From a virus, in IMG/VR virus record IMGVR_UViG_3300010938_000012, positions 1 to 64,000 of that record: a stretch of 64,000 bases of DNA; one strand, given 5' to 3'. The translations under genes and the position numbers were made by a program. Below are positions 1,802 to 63,439 of this stretch, piece by piece (the first letter of the stretch is position 1; every line of letters starts with the position of its first letter). Below the pieces are notes generated by a model, which saw only the letters and a list, made by a program, of their open reading frames with translations, searched no databases and had not been told where the DNA came from.

Positions 1802-2774
1802 TTTTATCTTTTTGAAAGATTATTTTGTAAGTGTATTTGTTTTGATTGCAGTAGTTTTCTCCCGCAATTATTTTTGCATTTAATTTGTCAACATCCTCTT
1901 CATACCCTTTAAGTTCTATTAACAATATTATGCCATCAACAAGGTTTATCAGGAAGTCAGGCCAATACTCGTGAACAACTCCATTAAACTCGTATTTTAT
2001 GAATATTTTATGTCTCTTAGTCCAAAATATCACATTCTCTTGTTTATCTAAAAACTTCATAAACCTAAGTTCGTAACCATAATGGTGGTACTCATTATCC
2101 TCTATATACTTGTTGAAATAGTTACCAACTTTAAACCTTTTATGGCTTTTGACACAGTCTGGATTTTCTTTTACATAGTTTGCTAATCTATTTTTATACT
2201 CTTCTGTGCTACATATAGGATTTAAACTTCTCGTATGTAAAATCTTAGCGATAGTTTCTTCCTTTGTAGTATCCTTTAGAGTCCAGTGGTTTTCTTTCAT
2301 TTTATTTTTTGTTTTGGCACTCTTAGGCTTTTTTGCCCTCTCGGATAATGCGTCCTTAAACTCTTGTGTATACTTTCCTTTTGGCATTTTGTAACTCTTG
2401 CCGTTTTTGTGCATATTTTCAAACTGCTTCTTACCATTTGAAGACAGTTCATCCTTTAGGTTGGGATTGTTTACATATTTAAACAGTTGGCCGCACTCAT
2501 AACTGCAACTTTTTTGAGTTTTGTATTTGCTTTCAAACGTACTATTACACACAGGACATACCCTACAATACATTGTTATACCCGTTCTTCTGTTTAACCT
2601 TGACTCTTTCTTTGCACACCCACAACTTTTTCTCCTTTTCAACTGTCCTGCTGTCTCGTAGACAATATTCCCACAATCACACAAACACTTCCACTTTTTG
2701 ATGTCATTAACGTATTCAACTTCTATGGTAGTTAATTTACCGAATCTAAGTCCTTCCGAAATTACTTCTTTCAT
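1767..2774 (-). CDS. Free-standing homing endonuclease, PD-(D/E)xK-like
   Basis: A 335-aa protein. Residues 1-60 hold a zinc-ribbon module (CLCDCGN ... SCGCAKKE) of the kind found in front of phage HNH/AP2 endonucleases. A second Cys cluster follows (CRVCPVCNSTF ... CSYECG). The middle is basic with NUMOD-like spacing. The C-terminus has the pattern E (YGYELRF), PDFLI and IELKG, matching a PD-(D/E)xK or Vsr/TnsA-like nuclease core. It sits directly upstream of, and overlaps, the intein-bearing nuclease gene, a typical position for a homing endonuclease. Confidence 0.75.
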   Translation of the reverse strand: MKEVISEGLRFGKLTTIEVEYVNDIKKWKCLCDCGNIVYETAGQLKRRKSCGCAKKESRLNRRTGITMYCRVCPVCNSTFESKYKTQKSCSYECGQLFKYVNNPNLKDELSSNGKKQFENMHKNGKSYKMPKGKYTQEFKDALSERAKKPKSAKTKNKMKENHWTLKDTTKEETIAKILHTRSLNPICSTEEYKNRLANYVKENPDCVKSHKRFKVGNYFNKYIEDNEYHHYGYELRFMKFLDKQENVIFWTKRHKIFIKYEFNGVVHEYWPDFLINLVDGIILLIELKGYEEDVDKLNAKIIAGENYCNQNKYTYKIIFQKDKNGFKNFANLSH

Positions 2775-4941: not shown

Positions 4942-5403
4942 CTATTTTAACATTGATATAATTAATTCTTTAAACTCGCTTGTAATTTTTACATTTCTAA
5001 ACTGGCCACTACCAATGGAATTGTTGTAGTAAGTGTCATCTGTTAGGACATCACATTTTATTTGATATATTATTTCGCACAGATTTGTCTGTCCCTTTGT
5101 TGGACAAAAGCAAATTATCTCAAATTCAAAGTTCTCCTTCCCAAACCTTTTAATGTCCTCAAGCAGCGGTTTACAACTGCCCATGTAATCGCGCCAGTTG
5201 CTCTCTGCGCGACTTTTTTTCTTTTGAGTCTTCTTTATCCCACTCTTCAGCGTTACGCGCTTGGTGGTCGTTTTAGCGGATGTTAGGTACTTCCTTCCGA
5301 TATATCTTTTTCCGTCCAGTTTTGAAGTTATTTTGTAGACAAACCCGAACGAACCTTCCGGTATCTCGAAGTCGTCAACCCCTTTGTAAGTCCAATTACT
5401 CAT
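4942..5403 (-). CDS. GIY-YIG endonuclease-like phage protein
   Basis: A 153-aa protein with a GIY-YIG core: GFVYKITSKLDGKRYIGRKY near residues 19-38, then ESNWRDYMGS and later FEFEIICF. Unlike a classical homing endonuclease it is only one domain. It could be a degenerate or domesticated homing nuclease, or a small structure-specific nuclease. Confidence 0.75.
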   Translation of the reverse strand: MSNWTYKGVDDFEIPEGSFGFVYKITSKLDGKRYIGRKYLTSAKTTTKRVTLKSGIKKTQKKKSRAESNWRDYMGSCKPLLEDIKRFGKENFEFEIICFCPTKGQTNLCEIIYQIKCDVLTDDTYYNNSIGSGQFRNVKITSEFKELIISMLK

Positions 5404-10338: not shown

Positions 10339-11946
10339 TTATTCGTATTTTAAATCTATTTGGATCAAAGCCTCGTCAACATAACTTTTTAAAATAGGCT
10401 TACTGATTTTACCGACTGCGAGCAATTCTTTGTTTTCGTTATATAAGCCTACTTGCGTGATGTAGACTTTTGGGTTTCCGTAGAAGTCATCAACAATTTG
10501 GCCTTCACTTCCCGTTCGGTAACTTGGATTGTTTGTGAAGTTGTATTCTCCGTTCTTAACCCGTATGAAGTATTGCTCTATATACTCGTATTTGACCTTT
10601 CTGGCTTGAAATCCGAGGTAATCGCCGCTTGCGTCTGTGTACAGGGCTGAACCTGACAATGAAGTGAACAATTTCATGGCATTGTCCCCAGCCACATCAC
10701 TTCCCGTCACTGTCAAGAAACTGGATGACATGTCAAGCAGGTCTGCATCGAGCAATATTACTCCGAGCCTTGGGTATGACAGGCCATAAACATGGGGTTG
10801 GGATTTGTTGTAAACACCGTCCTCAAGCGTACCGGACACTATGTAGTAAATCTCCCCCCCACGACCCACAAGACGGGCCTTTGATTCGCTTACGGTCTGA
10901 TAGAACCCCGCGTATGCTTCTGCTGACAATTCTGTCTCTACGTTCAGTTTGGAGTCGTCTATCAACCTTAAGATATTCCCCGCTGCTCCGAGCCTTACAT
11001 TAGAACCGGTGTGAGCGTTCCTGTTTCCGTTGCCGGCAAGGAATTGTGAGCCGGACAGCGCGTGAAGGTTTAACTCCAAGTTCCCCTCATCCAATCTGTC
11101 TCCGAACCTGTCTCTGTTTACGTCAATGGCATAGAAGTGGTTTATTATCTTAGAGCCTATCCTGAAATGTCTTTCAGTTGGGCTTAGACACAGGCTTCTG
11201 TATTGTCCATAAACTGCATTACTTGGGGACATCCAATCATATCCGCCCAAGTCCCTGCTTCCGCTTCCATCAATGTGCCCGTATGCAATGGAAAAGTGTT
11301 TATTTGGCGCGCAGTGAGAGTTGCATGGCGTTTGATAAACAGTCCTTCTATAGCTTTCGCTTGTTTCCGTACTGCAAGTGAAGTAAGTGACCATATTTCC
11401 TACCGCACCTCCGGTTGCGTCCTGCCAAATGCCATAGTAAACCTTGTTTACCTGTGTCGGCAGTTTGTCCCCTGTCGTTAGCCTCGTGTAGACTTTACCA
11501 GAAGCAATCTCGACAGGAGGCGCCGGTGGCGTTGGTATTATTGGCGGAACTGGCGCTGATGGCGGTGGAGGCGGCGGTGTTGGCGGGATTATCACAGGCG
11601 GCTCTGGCTGTGTTGGTGGCGGAGGTACTGGAGCTGTCAATTCCAACATTAAATCGTCATAGTTAACCCCTCCCCTATAATCGTCAGCCTGTACTTGAAA
11701 GACATATTGCCCATTTATGGTTTCTATATCTGTTCTTCTTATATTATTAGAACTTACCCACTGTATTCCGTCATATTCCTGAACATTTATAGCCCAACTT
11801 GTCCCCTGTACAAATATAGGAGCTGTGTAAGTATCCGGGTATGTGCCGTTACCTGTTATCGCACCCGTTATCACAAACCTCTGTGGCTGGTCAATCGGTT
11901 GCGTAATCAACCTTACTGTCCAATTACCCTGTATGCTTATTGGCAT
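10339..11946 (-). CDS. Virion structural protein with proline-rich hinge, paralogue A
   Basis: A 535-aa protein. The N-terminal ~110 residues are beta-rich, then a proline-rich hinge follows (PPPPTQPEPP, PPTPPPPPPSAP). The remainder is closely related to the neighbour at 12474: SGTLEDGVYN, SGSALYTDASGD and the end VRVKNGEYNFTNNP ... GLYNENKELLAVGKISKP are shared. The last ~90 residues also match the LamG protein. A tail fibre or adhesin is the best guess. The hinge would separate a docking domain from a binding domain. Confidence 0.7.
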   Translation of the reverse strand: MPISIQGNWTVRLITQPIDQPQRFVITGAITGNGTYPDTYTAPIFVQGTSWAINVQEYDGIQWVSSNNIRRTDIETINGQYVFQVQADDYRGGVNYDDLMLELTAPVPPPPTQPEPPVIIPPTPPPPPPSAPVPPIIPTPPAPPVEIASGKVYTRLTTGDKLPTQVNKVYYGIWQDATGGAVGNMVTYFTCSTETSESYRRTVYQTPCNSHCAPNKHFSIAYGHIDGSGSRDLGGYDWMSPSNAVYGQYRSLCLSPTERHFRIGSKIINHFYAIDVNRDRFGDRLDEGNLELNLHALSGSQFLAGNGNRNAHTGSNVRLGAAGNILRLIDDSKLNVETELSAEAYAGFYQTVSESKARLVGRGGEIYYIVSGTLEDGVYNKSQPHVYGLSYPRLGVILLDADLLDMSSSFLTVTGSDVAGDNAMKLFTSLSGSALYTDASGDYLGFQARKVKYEYIEQYFIRVKNGEYNFTNNPSYRTGSEGQIVDDFYGNPKVYITQVGLYNENKELLAVGKISKPILKSYVDEALIQIDLKYE

Positions 11947-12473: not shown

Positions 12474-14033
12474 TTAAAACATTAACATTGAGGACAATAT
12501 AAATCCGATCCAAACAAATTCGAGTTTAAGCTTAATCAACGCCTCTTTTGTGAATTTCTTCTGTAATGGCTTGGACAACTTGCCCACTGCAAGCAAGTCC
12601 TTGTTGTCGTTGTACAACCCTACTGTTGTTATGTATGTTGTGGGGTCTCCGATCATAGTAGGTTCAGCCAAATCCCCCTCGCTTCCTGTGACAAATGTTG
12701 GGTTGTTTGTGAAGTTGTATTCTTGGTTTTTTACCCTCACGAAATAGTGAGTGGACTTGACCTTTTCACCACTCCTTCCTTGGAATCCAAGCCTGTCTCC
12801 GCTTGCGTCTGTGTACAAGGCTGAACCTGACAATGACAGGAATAGTTTATATGCGTTGTTTCCGGGGATTTCCGAACCTGTGACAGTCAGGAAGCTCGCG
12901 CTCATGTCCAACCTGTTTCCGTCGAGCACAATGACACCTAACCTTCTGTAAAGTTTGCCATAATAATGCGGCGCTGAACTGTTGTAAACACCGTCCTCAA
13001 GTGTGCCGGACACTATATTATAGACCTCTCCGGCTGTTGTCACATCTGCCGAAGCAATTCTACTGTCATCAATTAATCGGGTTACTGCTTGTGTCGGGAA
13101 CACTCTTACATTTGAACCTGTCCACGCATTTTGCGCCCCGCCGCCAGCAAGCCACTGTGAGCCGCTCAATCTCTGTAAGTTTATCTCAAGGTTTCCCTCA
13201 TCAATAAACTCCCGCATACGCGCCCTATTTACGTTTATCACATAGATAGAATCCGTCGCTTTTCCGCCAATTGTGAACCTTTGTTCGTCCGCCTCAAGGC
13301 ACAGTTGCTTGTACTGCCCATAAATTGCACGGCTTGGGGTATCGTTTATCTGCCCCCCCTCATCTGCTGAACCAGACCCCTGTTTGTGCCCCCACGCTAC
13401 GGAAAACTGCGGCTCACTTCCACACTCACCACTACCAGAGTTGTATATTTCGTAATAATACCTCTGCTGTGTGGCATTTTGTCCAGAAGACGTGTGGAAC
13501 GTCAACAAGTTGGATACGTTACCTGACCACAATGCGCGAGTAATTGTTTCCTGCTGGTTTGGGACAATGTCCCCTGCCTCGAACCTTGTCCATATCCTGC
13601 CCGACCCAAGATTGTTTGGCGGCAACGGGGCTGGGTACGTTGGGCTTGTTGGGACGATTGGCGGCACTGCCCCGCCTCCGCCCGTATCCCTTGGAGGAGG
13701 CGCAAAATCTCTTATAGGGGGAAACAAACCCCCACCTGTCTGCGGCTTTACTCCGCCTGTATCAATAGATGGGCCCGTTGGTACAACGTTGTGTACAACA
13801 TTGTTCTCGTCCAGCACCAAAAAATTACCTTTTGGGGTTTCAAATCCCGCAACAGAAACTCCGGGCATTATTTGCTTATTTACTGGTTGGGTGTTTTGCA
13901 ACACAGACGGGTCGTTAGACACGGGTACAAGCGTTATTCCCGCCTCCTCTATTTTAGCCTTTTGAGACTCGTCTACCTTTTGAACAGTTCCGCTCGACCC
14001 GGCTGCTGCCATCCCTTTTTGTATAAATGCCAT
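12474..14033 (-). CDS. Virion structural protein with proline-rich hinge, paralogue B
   Basis: A 519-aa paralogue of the 10339 protein over roughly its last 380 residues, with the same C-terminal module (VRVKNQEYNFTNNP ... GLYNDNKDLLAVGKLSKP). Its N-terminal ~110 residues differ, and a Pro/Gly-rich hinge lies near residues 115-145. It ends with a hydrophobic extra tail (VWIGFILSSMLMF) after the point where its relatives stop, suggesting a lost stop codon. Likely tail fibre or adhesin. Confidence 0.7.
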   Translation of the reverse strand: MAFIQKGMAAAGSSGTVQKVDESQKAKIEEAGITLVPVSNDPSVLQNTQPVNKQIMPGVSVAGFETPKGNFLVLDENNVVHNVVPTGPSIDTGGVKPQTGGGLFPPIRDFAPPPRDTGGGGAVPPIVPTSPTYPAPLPPNNLGSGRIWTRFEAGDIVPNQQETITRALWSGNVSNLLTFHTSSGQNATQQRYYYEIYNSGSGECGSEPQFSVAWGHKQGSGSADEGGQINDTPSRAIYGQYKQLCLEADEQRFTIGGKATDSIYVINVNRARMREFIDEGNLEINLQRLSGSQWLAGGGAQNAWTGSNVRVFPTQAVTRLIDDSRIASADVTTAGEVYNIVSGTLEDGVYNSSAPHYYGKLYRRLGVIVLDGNRLDMSASFLTVTGSEIPGNNAYKLFLSLSGSALYTDASGDRLGFQGRSGEKVKSTHYFVRVKNQEYNFTNNPTFVTGSEGDLAEPTMIGDPTTYITTVGLYNDNKDLLAVGKLSKPLQKKFTKEALIKLKLEFVWIGFILSSMLMF

Positions 14034-14058: not shown

Positions 14059-15012
14059 TTAAGGAAGTTTTATAGGCGCATTGCCTGTCAACGGAATGTT
14101 GGGAGTTGTGTTTGTTGTCACTTTCCTTACAGTTATGTTGATGACCGTGCTGCCGCCCGTCTCATTACCTACGATTGTCAGGGTAGTTGACCTCGCTGCA
14201 AGGTTCAACATGTTTGCAGTAATAACAACACTCTTACCCGAAACCGTTATCGATGCTCCGATCTCGCTTTCTGTCAATGGAGCAGGAACAAGGTTTCCGG
14301 TTCCGCCAAATTGCTGTCCCGGTGCTGCTTGGTCAACATACATAGAACATACGTCACTGTCAGCCAGCGTAAACGAATACCCAAACGTCGTGTTTCCGTC
14401 CGTGTAATTTATTGTCTGCGGCGTAATAGTGATTGACTGTCCCGGACTTAACGTGAACGAGGATTGTGGCACAGACACAACAGGTATCCTTACGGTCTTG
14501 CGAGGCAGTGTCACAAGTTTGTACTTCATATTTTGTGTTTCGTCGGGCACAGCCTCGGTTATGGGCATACTTTCGAGGACAATGCCGTAGTATGCGCTTC
14601 CGAGTGGGTGGTCTGGATTCCACAGCGAATAATCAATTTCATCGTCAGCAAGTGCGAAGTAAGTCACATTGAACTCATTACGTCCACGGCTGAGTAGTTC
14701 CCTGCCTTTACGAGTTAATCATTTTGTTATCCAAGAGGCTTTTTATCCTCTTGTTCTTACAATTTATTTCTTGTAAGGTCGGCGTACATTTTCAACCAAT
14801 TCATAATTTTGGTTGTCGGAGACTCTTGGAAGTTTTCTTGCTCTCTTATCGCTCAACTTCTACGCTCTACAAGGAATTTTGATTTAAACCCCTCTCGGTA
14901 TTGCCATTTCAGGTTTCACCGATTTTCCCCAATTTTTACCCTATCATTACTGATCGGGGCGACATTAACCTATCGCATCGACAGTTATACTTTGGTTAGA
15001 AAGATAACCCAT
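14059..15012 (-). CDS. Virion structural protein, gene split by a group I intron
   Basis: Exon 1 is 14972-15012 (MGYLSNQSITVDAI, split in the last codon). Exon 2 is 14059-14719 (LTRKGRELLSRGRNEF onward). Joined, the CDS is 702 nt, 233 aa. I recognise the start of a phage structural family of the form MGYLSN.SITVDAIL.KKGRELL, which confirms the join. Without splicing the second part has only an internal GTG start (14667). The C-terminal half is Thr/Ser-rich and beta-like, as in tail proteins. A free-standing HNH endonuclease gene ends 3 nt before this start codon. Confidence 0.85.
14720..14971 (-). ncRNA. Group I self-splicing intron (252 nt, no ORF)
   Basis: Exon 1 ends ...GCGAT and pairs with intron GTCGC, giving a 5-bp P1 with the canonical U-G at the splice site and an 8-nt loop AGGTTAAT. 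The loop's GTTAAT is exactly complementary to ATTAAC at the start of exon 2, a perfect P10. The intron ends in G (the omega G at 14720). Removal restores the reading frame of a recognised protein family. I did not fold the P3-P8 core. Confidence 0.88.
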
Positions 15013-15015
15013 ATT

Positions 15016-15966
15016 TTATTTGTCCTTTTCTATTTTATTTAAAATAATATTCTGTTTAAACACTTCAACTTCCTTGTTAAACGAATACATTGTTTCTTTG
15101 TTATTGTGTATTTTTGAATGACATGACCTGCATACAAATATTAAATTCTCAAAACTATCATTCTTTTTGTTTTCGTCTACATGATGAAGGCATAGAGTAT
15201 TGGTATCGTCTTTACATCTAAAACATTTTCCATCTTGCTGCTCTCTTAAAAAATACCTATACTGTTTATTATAGAATTTTTCAGTATATGGAACATCTTT
15301 ATTTGGATTAAACTTGTAGTGATTTTCACCCGCTATTTTTTCAATTCTATCATCAGTGAACTTATCTTTACCTCTATTCCACGGAACCAATACTCCTGAT
15401 GCAAACCTTTCTATTTTTGTTTTAGAAGCCCTACTTCCTATTCTACTATAAATATAACTAACGTCTTCTTTTGTCTTGTTGTTTGTAAAATGTCTTTTAC
15501 TCAAAGTACCATCTTCTGATTGTCTTATCTTTGTTTCTTGCATCTTTGCCCTACGCCTTTCCTTTTCCTCTGGGTTAGATAGTAACTCCTTCATGTATTT
15601 TGAACGCTTCTTCTTAGTTTCCTCTGAAAAAGTTGGTGGGTTATCTACCCTATATTCTTTTACAGATTTAGATATTTTAGAAACAGCAGTTTTATACTCT
15701 TCTGAGTCTTTGTCGTATTTTGTCTGCCAGTTCCCCCCACCAGAATGTCCAACATAGCATTCGTTAATTTTGTAACCGTTTACTTTTACTTCCTTTCCAC
15801 ATCCGCAAACACAAGTTGGCATTATTCCTTTGAGTATATGTGTTTTAGTATACGCTGTCTTATCAATTCCATGTTCGTCATGTATATGCTTTGTGAAACT
15901 TCCGACTGTTCGGTACTCTCTTTCGCATATTTTACATACTAAATCTGTTAATAAATTTTTTGCCAT
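15016..15966 (-). CDS. HNH homing endonuclease with N-terminal zinc finger
   Basis: A 316-aa protein. It has a C2H2-like finger near residues 10-30 (CKICEREYRTVGSFTKHIHDEH), a second Cys cluster (CVCGCGKE), a basic middle, and a C-terminal HNH with zinc ligands (CFRCKDDTNTLCLHHVDENK ... CRSCHSKIHN). It ends 3 nt before the intron-split gene, so it probably mobilises that intron or protects the site, although it lies outside the intron. Confidence 0.88.
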   Translation of the reverse strand: MAKNLLTDLVCKICEREYRTVGSFTKHIHDEHGIDKTAYTKTHILKGIMPTCVCGCGKEVKVNGYKINECYVGHSGGGNWQTKYDKDSEEYKTAVSKISKSVKEYRVDNPPTFSEETKKKRSKYMKELLSNPEEKERRRAKMQETKIRQSEDGTLSKRHFTNNKTKEDVSYIYSRIGSRASKTKIERFASGVLVPWNRGKDKFTDDRIEKIAGENHYKFNPNKDVPYTEKFYNKQYRYFLREQQDGKCFRCKDDTNTLCLHHVDENKKNDSFENLIFVCRSCHSKIHNNKETMYSFNKEVEVFKQNIILNKIEKDK

Positions 15967-60382: not shown

Positions 60383-60453
60383 TACCCCCGGCAGGACTCG
60401 AACCTGCGCTCCTGCGTCCGTAGCGCAGAGGTCTTCCATTAGCCTACGGGAAT
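60383..60453 (-). tRNA. tRNA-Arg (anticodon ACG)
   Basis: 71 nt. Acceptor ATTCCCG/CGGGGGT, anticodon stem CTGCG/CGCAG with loop CTACGGA, T-arm GCAGG-TTCGAGT-CCTGC, discriminator A. CCA not encoded. The D-stem has a weak pair. Confidence 0.85.
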
Positions 60454-60474
60454 AGGTGAGGCCTAAGCCTCTTT

Positions 60475-60621
60475 TTACTTTCTTATCACAACATAAATCG
60501 TGTCTCTCACGACCCCACCAGTATGCTCCACCTCCCTGACTCGTCCTGTCCAACCTCTTTCGTGTTGAACGATGTCCCCTGCTTTAAGACCTTTAGAGTT
60601 GTTTGGCTTGATGTCGCTCAT
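60475..60621 (-). CDS. Small basic protein, 48 aa
   Basis: I use ATG 60621 (MSDIKPNNSKGLKAGDIVQH), overlapping the upstream stop as ATGA. It looks like a small SH3-type barrel (GWTGRVREVEHTGGVVRDTI). Confidence 0.6.
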   Translation of the reverse strand: MSDIKPNNSKGLKAGDIVQHERGWTGRVREVEHTGGVVRDTIYVVIRK

Positions 60622-60851
60622 ACAGTTAGTTTCTGGAATCCGTGTGTGAATGAAATACAAACTACCTCTGCTTCCTTTATGTCCCCAAGGGATACGTTTT
60701 TACACAGCGTAGCGTCACTTTTTCGGTTCCATTTGCGGGCTTTTTGAAGGGATTTATCCCAGCCAAAGCGGGCAAGATAACCGAGGGTAGGATGCTTTAT
60801 CACCCACATCTTTAATACCTCTGGGAGAGGTTCAGATTCACTTATTTTCAT
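60618..60851 (-). CDS. Small protein, 77 aa
   Basis: I use ATG 60851 (MKISESEPLPEVLKMWVIKH), because the longer ORF runs through the tRNA-Val gene. Contains WDKSLQKARKWNRKSDATLC. No family recognised. Confidence 0.6.
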   Translation of the reverse strand: MKISESEPLPEVLKMWVIKHPTLGYLARFGWDKSLQKARKWNRKSDATLCKNVSLGDIKEAEVVCISFTHGFQKLTV

Positions 60852-60865
60852 ATTAATTTGCTTTG

Positions 60866-60938
60866 TGCTCCGTGAGGGACTCGAACCCACGGATGCTGGT
60901 ATGTAAAACCAATGCAATAGCCGCTATGCGAACGGAGC
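60866..60938 (-). tRNA. tRNA-Val (anticodon TAC)
   Basis: 73 nt. Acceptor GCTCCGT/ACGGAGC perfect, anticodon loop TTTACAT, T-arm GTGGG-TTCGAGT-CCCTC with one mismatch, discriminator A. Confidence 0.85.
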
Positions 60939-61131
60939 AAAAATGGGGCGATTGAGGTTCGCCCCCGACCTGAATCCCGAACCTGCTCAACACAATTTCA
61001 ACCGTTTCACGGATACCGAAATAAAAGGTACGCGCACCTATTAACCACAGACAATCTCCATTGCCGCCTCTATCCGTTCCCGGTGTGCGGCCTGCCCCAA
61101 TAGCGCCGAGCGATTGCGGTTGGGTTTTTCG

Positions 61132-61200
61132 TGGACTATGTGGGCATCGAACCCACCTGTTGTTCCTCTGTGCAAGAGAGGCGACCACTCCGAGCAGTCC
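61132..61200 (-). tRNA. Atypical tRNA, probably Ala (TGC)
   Basis: Anticodon stem CCTCT/AGAGG with loop CTTGCAC and T-arm GTGGG-TTCGATG-CCCAC are good. Acceptor GGACTGC/ATAGTCC has one mismatch. Only ~12 nt separate acceptor and anticodon stem, so the D-arm is reduced. A Cys reading (GCA) is possible with a weaker stem. Confidence 0.5.
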
Positions 61201-61219
61201 CACAGCCCATTATATTTAG

Positions 61220-61293
61220 TAACTCTGACGGGAGTCGAACCCGTAGTTTATGGGGCTTAAACCCATTGTGTCTGCCAATTCCACCACAGAGCC
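61220..61293 (-). tRNA. tRNA-Leu (anticodon TAA) with a short variable loop
   Basis: 74 nt. Acceptor GGCTCTG/CAGAGTT (two G-U), Leu-like D-arm (GTGGAATTGGCAGACAC), anticodon stem ATGGG/CCCAT with loop TTTAAGC, T-arm ACGGG-TTCGACT-CCCGT. Only five variable-loop bases, unlike normal class II Leu tRNAs. Confidence 0.85.
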
Positions 61294-61357
61294 AAAATAA
61301 ACTCACACCCCTTATCCCCCAACAGTCCGCCAAATACACTGTTTTTATGTGAGTTTG

Positions 61358-61430
61358 TAGGGAAAACGCGACTCGAACGCGCATTCTCTTGCTCCCAAAG
61401 CAAGCGGACTGACCATTCTCCCATTTCCCT
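61358..61430 (-). tRNA. tRNA-Pro (anticodon TGG)
   Basis: 73 nt. Acceptor AGGGAAA/TTTCCCT perfect, anticodon stem CTTGC/GCAAG with loop TTTGGGA, T-arm closing with TTCGAGT, discriminator A. Confidence 0.88.
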
Positions 61431-61442
61431 GTTTGGCGAACT

Positions 61443-61616
61443 TTATCTGGGATACAACTTACCAGAAAGGTGTTTCTCATTATAGTCGCCAATGCCATGC
61501 TGCCCACCCCAAACAAGTTTCCGCACCGCAATAGGTCGAGCCTTGTAAAAGCTGTCGTTTCGGGTTAGCTCCGAATATGGCATTGCCTTTGAAAAATTTT
61601 TGAAGTATAGGCACAT
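61443..61616 (-). CDS. Small conserved protein, 57 aa
   Basis: Frame from ATG 61616 (or 61583). The stretch YSELTRNDSFYKARPIAVRK and GGQHGIGDYNEKHLSGKLYP is a recognisable small phage protein pattern (LTRNDSFY). It fills the gap between two tRNA genes. Confidence 0.55.
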   Translation of the reverse strand: MCLYFKNFSKAMPYSELTRNDSFYKARPIAVRKLVWGGQHGIGDYNEKHLSGKLYPR

Positions 61617-61756
61617 CGTTGTCAGCAAGAACTGCTGGTTAAAACCCAAGGAGACCTGATATATCAAGAGCATTGTGTGCCCCACCGCTTGTATCGTTTG
61701 TCAACCCACCACAAACTCACCTTCCCAAGTCAACAGCCGTATCCGACTTCAAACCT

Positions 61757-61936
61757 CTAAAGGTATGGTCTTTCCTTCATTGCACAACCTACCGCCTTAT
61801 AAGTTCCCGGCAAAGAGAGGAAGAACGAGAACAGCAACAGTCCCCAGCCCTCCGCTCCTTTGAGCATGATGTATATTGCGCCACCTAACTGGACAATAGA
61901 AAATATCACTGCCAATATTGCTAAAAGTACTCTCAT
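61757..61936 (-). CDS. Small membrane protein, 59 aa
   Basis: I use ATG 61936 (MRVLLAILAVIFSIVQLGGA). Two hydrophobic helices (the second GWGLLLFSFFLSLPG). Role unknown. The 61937-62271 stretch to the next tRNA holds no convincing gene. Confidence 0.55.
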   Translation of the reverse strand: MRVLLAILAVIFSIVQLGGAIYIMLKGAEGWGLLLFSFFLSLPGTYKAVGCAMKERPYL

Positions 61937-62271
61937 TCGTCGTTTTTGTTGAGGGGGCAGTCCAAGCACACTAACATGCCTCTGCATATCCCTAAATTAC
62001 ATGTGATAGAGGTTTGAAGTCCTTTTCCCGTCTGGTTAAACCTCGAAGCAAAGGTTCACACTCTGCTTGTGTCTGGAATAGCCCAAACCAAGAACAATAG
62101 TGCGGCGGTGCAACTCTTTCGTACAGTTTTTTGTCCCCACTGTCTCTCCGACCAATTGGCAAAACAACCTTGTAAAAAGTGGCTGTGTGAATACCTAAAA
62201 TTAGGGATTTTAACCACAAACCTATCGAACACAAGCACTATCGTGTCACTCCTTTTTCAATCCTCATCTTG

Positions 62272-62341
62272 AGCGGAATCTCGGAATCGAACCGGGTTCT
62301 TAGACTTGGCAAGCCCACACATTACCTTTTGCCTATCCAGC
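62272..62341 (-). tRNA. tRNA-Gly (anticodon GCC)
   Basis: 70 nt. Anticodon stem TGGGC/GTCTA with loop TTGCCAA. One mismatch in the acceptor (GCTGGAT/ATTCCGC) and one in the T-stem, so it may be decaying. Confidence 0.7.
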
Positions 62342-62349
62342 AAGTTTTG

Positions 62350-62430
62350 TACTGGCGGAGGGACTCGAACCCCCGTTTTCAACTTACCGCTACGAGTATA
62401 GATGATATAAGCATCCATCGGTACGCCAGC
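62350..62430 (-). tRNA. Atypical tRNA-like gene (anticodon arm reads TAT)
   Basis: 81 nt. Acceptor GCTGGCG/CGCCAGT and T-arm GGGGG-TTCGAGT-CCCTC are good. A perfect anticodon-type arm GGATG-CTTATAT-CATCT lies only 7 nt after the acceptor, leaving no D-arm. A D-arm-like ACTCGTAGCGGTAAGT appears on its 3' side instead. Isotype uncertain (Ile if TAT). Confidence 0.5.
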
Positions 62431-62632
62431 ATTTTATACTGCACTGAACTTATGTTCCCTTTTCTATGCTTTGTATATTTTGTTTTTTTAAAACAATATG
62501 ATCATCAACAGCTCCCCGCGTAAAACTCATTTTGATATAAGTACCAAAAGTTTTACAAAAAAAGAATCGGTTGCACTGACCAATTGTGATAATGGCCCAT
62601 GTCTGCACAAATATTTTAATGCTTTATTTTTG

Positions 62633-62703
62633 CATACCCCAAGAGACTCGAACTCTCAACGTTAGTTTTGGAGACTAAAATGTTACCATTACACCAAGGG
62701 TAT
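62633..62703 (-). tRNA. tRNA-Trp (anticodon CCA)
   Basis: 71 nt. Acceptor ATACCCT/GGGGTAT, anticodon stem TTAGT/ACTAA with loop CTCCAAA, T-arm GAGAG-TTCGAGT-CTCTT, discriminator G as expected for Trp. Confidence 0.88.
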
Positions 62704-62776
62704 GTAAAATTTACTGACATATATTTGCCAGTTTGTTTTCAACCACCACACCCGCCGCCAGTTAAGTTATAATTTG

Positions 62777-62862
62777 AGCCGAGTGTCAGACTCGAACTGA
62801 CGCGGAGAACATTATCTCGACGGATTACAAATCCGCTGCCTTCGCCACTTGGCTAACTCGGC
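62777..62862 (-). tRNA. Class II tRNA with a Thr anticodon (TGT)
   Basis: 86 nt. Acceptor GCCGAGT/ACTCGGC perfect, Ser-like D-arm (GCCAAGTGGCGAAGGC), anticodon stem GCGGA/TCCGT with loop TTTGTAA, long variable arm with stem GAGA/TCTC, T-arm GTCAG-TTCGAGT-CTGAC. The body resembles Ser or Tyr tRNA while the anticodon reads Thr. Confidence 0.8.
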
Positions 62863-62949
62863 ATAAACGGAATAAAGGCTCTGCCTGTTAAAAAATCACA
62901 AAAAACCAGTGCAGCCTCATTCCGGCAAGTGTCGTTTTTATCTTTGTGT

Positions 62950-63042
62950 TTACCTGTTCGTGACTTCTTTTACCCAAGCCACGATTTGAGGTTGAAACTT
63001 TGCAATAAGGTAGCCTGATGCTATCCCAATAAGTAATACCAT
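62950..63042 (-). CDS. Micro membrane protein, 30 aa
   Basis: MVLLIGIASGYLIAKFQPQI then VAWVKEVTNR. One short transmembrane helix followed by an amphipathic segment. Clear ATG and stop; a known style of phage microprotein. Confidence 0.6.
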   Translation of the reverse strand: MVLLIGIASGYLIAKFQPQIVAWVKEVTNR

Positions 63043-63178
63043 AGTGCTTGTTTTTAGTGGTTTAATTGAATCCTACATCCCTTGAACACCGTTGTTGGTG
63101 ATTCCCAGAGTGTAAGAAATTCTTTAAAAAAAGTTATCCTAAGAGGCCATCCTGCCCCGATTTCATTGAACATTCTTG

Positions 63179-63252
63179 AGCGTCTCACGGGAATCGAACC
63201 CGCACCTAAAGTTTGGAAGACTATCATGCTGACCGTTGAACACCAAAGACGC
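63179..63252 (-). tRNA. tRNA-Gly (anticodon TCC)
   Basis: 74 nt. Acceptor GCGTCTT/GAGACGC, anticodon loop CTTCCAA on stem ATAGT/ACTTT (one mismatch), T-arm GCGGG-TTCGATT-CCCGT, discriminator T. Confidence 0.85.
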
Positions 63253-63367
63253 GCTAAATTCGGCAGTGCTGATGACTATTACCCCACTTGTTAACCCGGC
63301 CACTTGCCAGCCAGTAGTGCTTTCTCTCTTGATTACCTTGTAGTACAGTCCTTCGTCAAGAGTTTTG

Positions 63368-63439
63368 AGGGAAGGCTGGGACTCGAACCCAGACCTCGCA
63401 AATTAACAGTTTGCCGCTCTACCATTATGCTACCTTCCC
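63368..63439 (-). tRNA. tRNA-Asn (anticodon GTT)
   Basis: 72 nt. Acceptor GGGAAGG/CCTTCCC perfect, anticodon stem GCAAA/TTTGC with loop CTGTTAA, T-arm CTGGG-TTCGAGT-CCCAG. Well formed throughout. Confidence 0.9.

Follow-up and report, generated by a model that had tools for sequence, protein, structure and literature searches.

A very probable ORF-less group I intron interrupting the 5' end of a putative phage tail gene, adjoined by a free-standing HNH endonuclease gene

In a virus record of 99 kb (IMG/VR record IMGVR_UViG_3300010938_000012), the minus strand very probably carries a small self-splicing group I intron, free of any open reading frame (ORF) and of IA2-type anatomy, at the 5' end of what is probably a phage tail gene. 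The stretch analyzed, termed “the window”, comprises the first 64,000 nucleotides of that record; its features are collected in Table 1. The anatomy of the intron, the covariation in its helices, the existence of empty sites and its membership in a family of phage introns are established directly, and we infer that the 252-nt intron in the window is spliced. This member, its insertion site and its pairing with an endonuclease gene (HEG) are new, and the kind of element is already known. The finding gives back to a conserved phage gene, which is truncated in ORF calling, what is likely its true start.

The interrupted gene opens with an exon (15012-14972) whose translation is MGYLSNQSITVDAI, its final codon being split by the insert; joined to exon 2, it gives a 233-aa reading frame. 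A preliminary description of this DNA had placed the splice sites by means of a P1 helix with a U.G pair, a P1 loop exactly complementary to the start of exon 2 (P10) and a terminal intron G, and had described a small intron without an ORF lying next to an HNH gene 3 nt upstream. All of these observations were reproduced. P1 and P10 form as described, the last base of the intron is the G at 14720, no ORF is contained in 14720-14971 (minus strand), and the HNH stop codon (15016-15018) closely precedes the exon 1 ATG at 15012. In the unspliced RNA, the internal guide GUCGC would hold the exon end GCGAU via P1, and a guanosine bound by P7 would attack after the terminal U of exon 1. With exon 2 aligned by P10, the released exon 1 would then attack after the terminal G, and the uninterrupted 233-aa frame would result.

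An unconstrained fold of the intron contains P1, P2, P3, P4, P5, P6, P7.1/P7.2, P8, P9 and an extra 3' hairpin (z = -4.35; 0 of 200 shuffles did as well). P7 does not appear in it; this helix was absent from every folding input, and a pseudoknot is invisible to such folding. Its strands, GAGCGUA and UACGCC, hold what we take to be the usual bulged A and G-C pair at the guanosine-binding position. Among seven copies of the intron found at this site, P7 pairs in 100% of cells, with an exchange of G-C for A-U in three of them (loci L278, L291 and L300); the same exchange occurs in the wider family alignment in Bacillus phage PJN02 (L095). P1 also pairs in 100% of cells, and the U.G pair is at the splice site in all seven copies. 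P10 is a perfect 6-bp helix in the window copy only and is weaker in the other six, such that 77.5% of its cells are paired over all seven. For the seven-copy alignment as a whole, 97.7% of cells are paired and both partners have changed in 22 of 64 pairs, a result that none of 500 shuffles equals, and pairing falls to 32-43% when the register is slid. The wider alignment, comprising 25 family introns of which most are from other genes and other phages, has 95.5% of cells paired and both-side changes in 18 of 33 pairs (again 0 of 500 shuffles). P7.1, P7.2 and an extended P9 are named as IA2 features in a survey of IStrons (PMC4227781), and the window intron has them: the P7.1/P7.2 insertion lies between P7 and the 3' strand of P3, and the extended P9 domain consists of two hairpins, both with covariation.

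Table 1. Positions of the intron, its helices, the flanking exons and the associated endonuclease genes (window coordinates unless a locus is named).
Feature	Position	Strand	Remarks
Exon 1	14972..15012	-	41 nt; MGYLSNQSITVDA plus first two bases of an Ile codon; 3' end GCGAU
Group I intron (very probable)	14720..14971	-	252 nt; without ORF; last base G (omega-G)
Exon 2	14059..14719	-	completes the Ile codon, then LTRKGRELL...; 219 aa; stop 14059-14061
P1	14959..14976	-	exon GCGAU 14976-14972 with intron GUCGC 14963-14959; U.G at 5' splice site
P10 strand in P1 loop	14964..14969	-	GUUAAU, exact complement of exon 2 AUUAAC 14719-14714
P2 hairpin	14939..14958	-	both-side changes in 5/7 pairs (7 copies)
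P3	14816..14932	-	14932-14927 with 14821-14816; G-C/C-G and U-A/C-G/A-U exchanges
P4 enclosing P5	14895..14922	-	P4 14922-14917/14900-14895; P5 14913-14912/14905-14904
P6 region	14868..14894	-	hairpin from folding; highly variable in the family and left out of covariation scoring
P7 pseudoknot, guanosine-binding	14781..14867	-	14867 and 14865-14861 with 14786-14781; bulged A 14866
P7.1/P7.2 insertion	14829..14860	-	stem 14860-14856/14833-14829; both-side changes in 5/6 pairs (25 family members)
P8 hairpin	14793..14815	-	both-side changes in 6/7 pairs (25 family members)
P9 hairpin	14756..14777	-	both-side changes in 3/7 pairs
Second P9-domain hairpin (P9.1 or P9.2)	14732..14753	-	both-side changes in 6/7 pairs
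Free-standing HNH endonuclease gene	15016..15966	-	316 aa; intact; 3 nt upstream of exon 1
Predicted HNH catalytic region	15103..15225	-	residues 248-288
C2H2 zinc-finger-like N-terminus	15868..15939	-	common to a second HEG type that intron-less phages have close to this position
Second HEG type	L007:3805-4977; L360:199-1272 and 2189-2479		in phages without the intron, at this site or close to it

Inserts of 248-257 nt occupy one and the same codon position in seven distinct phages. Besides the window, these are L004, L005, L008 (with the near-identical L009), L278, L291 and L300, the last being a 292-kb phage contig whose interrupted gene is ~46% identical. The copies were located by scans of IMG/VR using the gene, the core motifs and the HNH protein; a scan for the exon-junction pattern returned mostly chance sites and, after filtering, one useful new locus (L278). 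In every copy, a U precedes the insert, and the terminal G and the P1 guide are conserved. The insert is optional at this position, and its removal restores the frame in each copy. Two metagenomic phages (L002 and L003) have uninterrupted 233-aa homologues that begin MGYLSNQSITVDAILTRKGRE and align end to end with the spliced product at 94-95% identity. The preliminary description had named homologues that continue through the proposed intron as evidence that would count against it; among the ~80 loci inspected there were none, and the uninterrupted genes join exon 1 directly to exon 2.

An alternative explanation is that the insert does not splice, and that the gene is split or N-terminally truncated, with translation beginning at an internal start such as the GTG at 14667 (202 aa). 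This GTG is present. However, exon 1, its start codon and P1 are retained in all seven copies, even though exon 1 would be useless in a split or truncated gene. Further, the helices are maintained by compensatory changes, and an internal start drops residues of which several are invariant in the gene family. We therefore regard a non-splicing insert as very unlikely.

The intron belongs to a family that extends well outside this gene. R1, a covariance model trained on 20 introns, all from outside this gene, scores the window intron at 125.8 bits (E=7e-27). It also recovers the six other same-site copies and finds nothing in the uninterrupted homologues tested (L002, L003, L006 and L007). Related introns were found in Firmicute and other phages by DNA similarity, motif scans and R1; they reside, for instance, in tape measure genes (L083, L094, L096, CBP1 and TPWB06) and in the ribonucleotide reductase gene of Clostridioides phage pCD1602_4. 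R1 has no match in T4 or SPbeta, and thus the introns of those phages are not close relatives of the window intron. We also note that some records hold two or three family members (L139, and L385-L387 in pCD1602_4). A 21-nt match at positions 88577-88597 of the record was considered as a further intron and was rejected by R1.

The preliminary description had suggested a covariance search with the group I model. R1 recognized the intron, but the Rfam model RF00028 has no match to it in gathering or E-value mode, up to E=10. RF00028 also misses eight other related loci, L008 included (those named are L083, L084, L085, L087, L093-L096 and L008). In T4 (L102), it gives td 40.3 bits and nrdB 35.7 bits, both below its 50-bit cut-off. 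Because these T4 introns also fall short, we do not count the miss against group I membership; a match to RF00028 tests against a library and does not define group I introns. Because the clade is invisible to the standard Rfam model, counts of phage introns that rely on it are probably underestimates. The lack of an Rfam call might also be taken to mean that the insert is another structured element (a riboswitch, an attenuator, a non-coding RNA or a transposon) or that the assembly is at fault. This notion, to which we assign a negligible probability, is already refuted for practical purposes by the same-site copies, the covariation and the R1 model. The insert has a complete group I anatomy including the P7 pseudoknot, it is without an ORF, the same insert is present in independent metagenome assemblies, and the frame is intact in every copy once it is removed. 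The original call of a group I intron is thus upheld: loci occur both with the insert and lacking it, the core is complete and includes P7, its helices covary, and a covariance model derived from introns in other genes recognizes it.

The HNH gene is under purifying selection, with a dN/dS of ~0.11-0.17 and synonymous sites near saturation. Its product matches PHROG HNH families with E-values down to 4e-9; the Pfam HNH match over residues 248-288 falls short of the cut-off in the window (E 0.0015) and narrowly passes it in L004. Six of the seven same-site intron loci have a related HNH gene immediately upstream, with gene divergence down to ~46% identity; the exception is L278, where the intron lacks an upstream HNH gene. 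Among the uninterrupted homologues examined, none has an HNH gene of the window type beside it. When ten intron-less records were searched whole, the shared N-terminal region was found in two, and the record of L061 had one weak HNH-like match. The end of the HNH frame varies in position: in the window, L004 and L005 it precedes exon 1, and in L291 and L008 it falls inside exon 1. In L300 (minus strand; oriented 567-1391), the frame spans exon 1 and 36 nt of the intron, with its stop in the P2 region.

A second HEG type occupies the same or a nearby spot in the intron-less phages L007 and L360; upstream of position 5001, it is decayed in L002 and a remnant in L003. Its protein shares the zinc-finger/CxCGCG N-terminal region with the HNH protein and differs from it in the C-terminal domain, which is not of HNH type. 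By eye, we take the nuclease of L007 to be EDxHD-like; an AlphaFold model of it, made without an alignment, was uninformative (pLDDT 34.5).

The HNH gene is probably a partner in the mobility of the intron. The enzyme would cut alleles that lack the intron, at the insertion site or close to it; a genome with the intron would be shielded by it, and repair would copy the intron and/or the HNH gene, a process known as collaborative homing. The window has an ORF-less intron adjoining an intact HEG, as such a process calls for. It also calls for the HEG to occur only with the intron, because otherwise its own genome would be cut; the co-occurrence of HNH gene and intron described above is as collaborative homing predicts. 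On the gene tree, there are at least four changes of intron state and at least three of HNH state. HNH and intron were gained or lost together in three of four independent pairs, a number (n=4) too small for significance; all informative independent pairs agree, with three of three HNH changes accompanying the intron.

Sequence divergence gives a different picture. The window intron is 98% identical to those of L004 and L005, with the core identical or nearly so, and even loops in which family members from other genes differ show no changes. In the same comparisons, synonymous differences are 65-70% in the HNH gene and 68-86% in exon 2. The near saturation of these neighbors argues that the intron and HNH gene have not recently moved as one block. 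Most likely, the intron has spread or been homogenized among these phages more recently than the genes around it; alternatively, strong constraint on the RNA could account for the identity. The earlier proposal that the HNH nuclease serves the mobility of the intron is thus supported in part: the co-occurrence is strong, but the divergence speaks against a recent joint move. On balance, we lean slightly toward collaborative homing with the adjacent HNH enzyme.

There is a substantial possibility, short of an even one, that the intron splices and the HNH gene is merely its neighbor. The 5' end of the gene would then be a hot spot for HEGs, and the pairing would stem from HEG turnover: an intronic HEG was lost, a free-standing one arrived, and the intron spreads by recombination or on the cuts of other enzymes. 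The second HEG type at or near the same place is in keeping with such turnover, as are the solitary intron of L278 and the unequal divergence of intron and HNH gene; turnover has also been proposed for the similar terminase locus of ICP1 (PMC10448857). It accounts less readily for an HNH gene that stands beside nearly all of the same-site introns, across genes as little as ~46% identical, and beside none of the intron-less homologues examined. A more doubtful idea is that these loci represent steps between free-standing and intron-encoded HEGs. Two HEG types, with a common N-terminal DNA-binding-like region and different nuclease parts, would compete for the spot, and the intron would spread on cuts made by either. 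The series of same-site loci, with the HEG before, overlapping or extending into the intron, a rival HEG, or an intron without a HEG, lends itself naturally to tests of how endonucleases are gained or lost by mobile introns.

Comparable arrangements are known in other phages. The introns of phages CBP1 (Caldibacillus), TPWB06, ROSA (Staphylococcus) and pCD1602_4 (Clostridioides) have the same core sequence and helices as that of the window. The tape-measure and ribonucleotide reductase introns differ from it in host gene and insertion site, and some relatives (L083 and pCD1602_4) carry an internal HEG ORF, whereas the window intron has none. The psbA intron of cyanophage S-PM2 is mobilized by collaborative homing, with F-CphI cutting the intron-less gene (PMC6083498). 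There too, a free-standing HEG adjoins the gene interrupted by a group I intron; however, F-CphI has an Endo VII motif and demonstrated cutting activity, whereas the window protein is a predicted HNH enzyme with a zinc-finger-like N-terminus. In the large terminase gene of ICP1, a T5orf172 HEG is adjacent to the N-terminal exon, splicing was demonstrated by RT-PCR, and collaborative homing has been discussed (PMC10448857). The short N-terminal exon, the HEG-less intron and the HEG directly beside exon 1 recall the window, but the nuclease family and the gene are others. Capsid and tail genes of Cluster J mycobacteriophages have introns that are probably of group I, with demonstrated splicing (PMC3706429). 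These also lie in virion genes, as the host gene of the window likely is, but they are distinct introns, and the one in the LittleE capsid gene has an HNH gene of its own. IStrons (CdISt1 and relatives) share the IA2 anatomy, P7.1/P7.2 and the extended P9, but have transposon genes in their 3' part, which the window intron lacks (PMC4227781).

The preliminary description had assigned the interrupted gene to a known structural protein family and called it a virion gene. This assignment is plausible from the gene neighborhood and weak profile matches, and the gene is likely, though on slender grounds, a virion gene and probably a tail gene. The spliced product has no convincing match in Pfam or PHROG; three of 19 family members match a tail collar fibre family, with a best E-value of 0.003. 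Two cultured phages, Microcystis phage Mel-JY01 and Flavobacterium phage immuto, have the gene in uninterrupted form; in immuto it follows a baseplate wedge gene and is itself followed by tail fibre and spike genes. A structural model of the product (mean pLDDT 58.8) is good only in a C-terminal beta-sandwich, whose structure matches are Ig-like with low TM-scores. Downstream of exon 2, the genes at 10339-11946 and 12474-14033 of the window are apparent paralogues of each other, with shared stretches GSALYTDASGD and FVRVKN.EYNFTNNP / FIRVKNGEYNFTNNP; neither belongs to a Pfam family, and the second is also without a PHROG match. Elsewhere in the window, nine tRNA genes lie within 3 kb on the minus strand (60383-63439).
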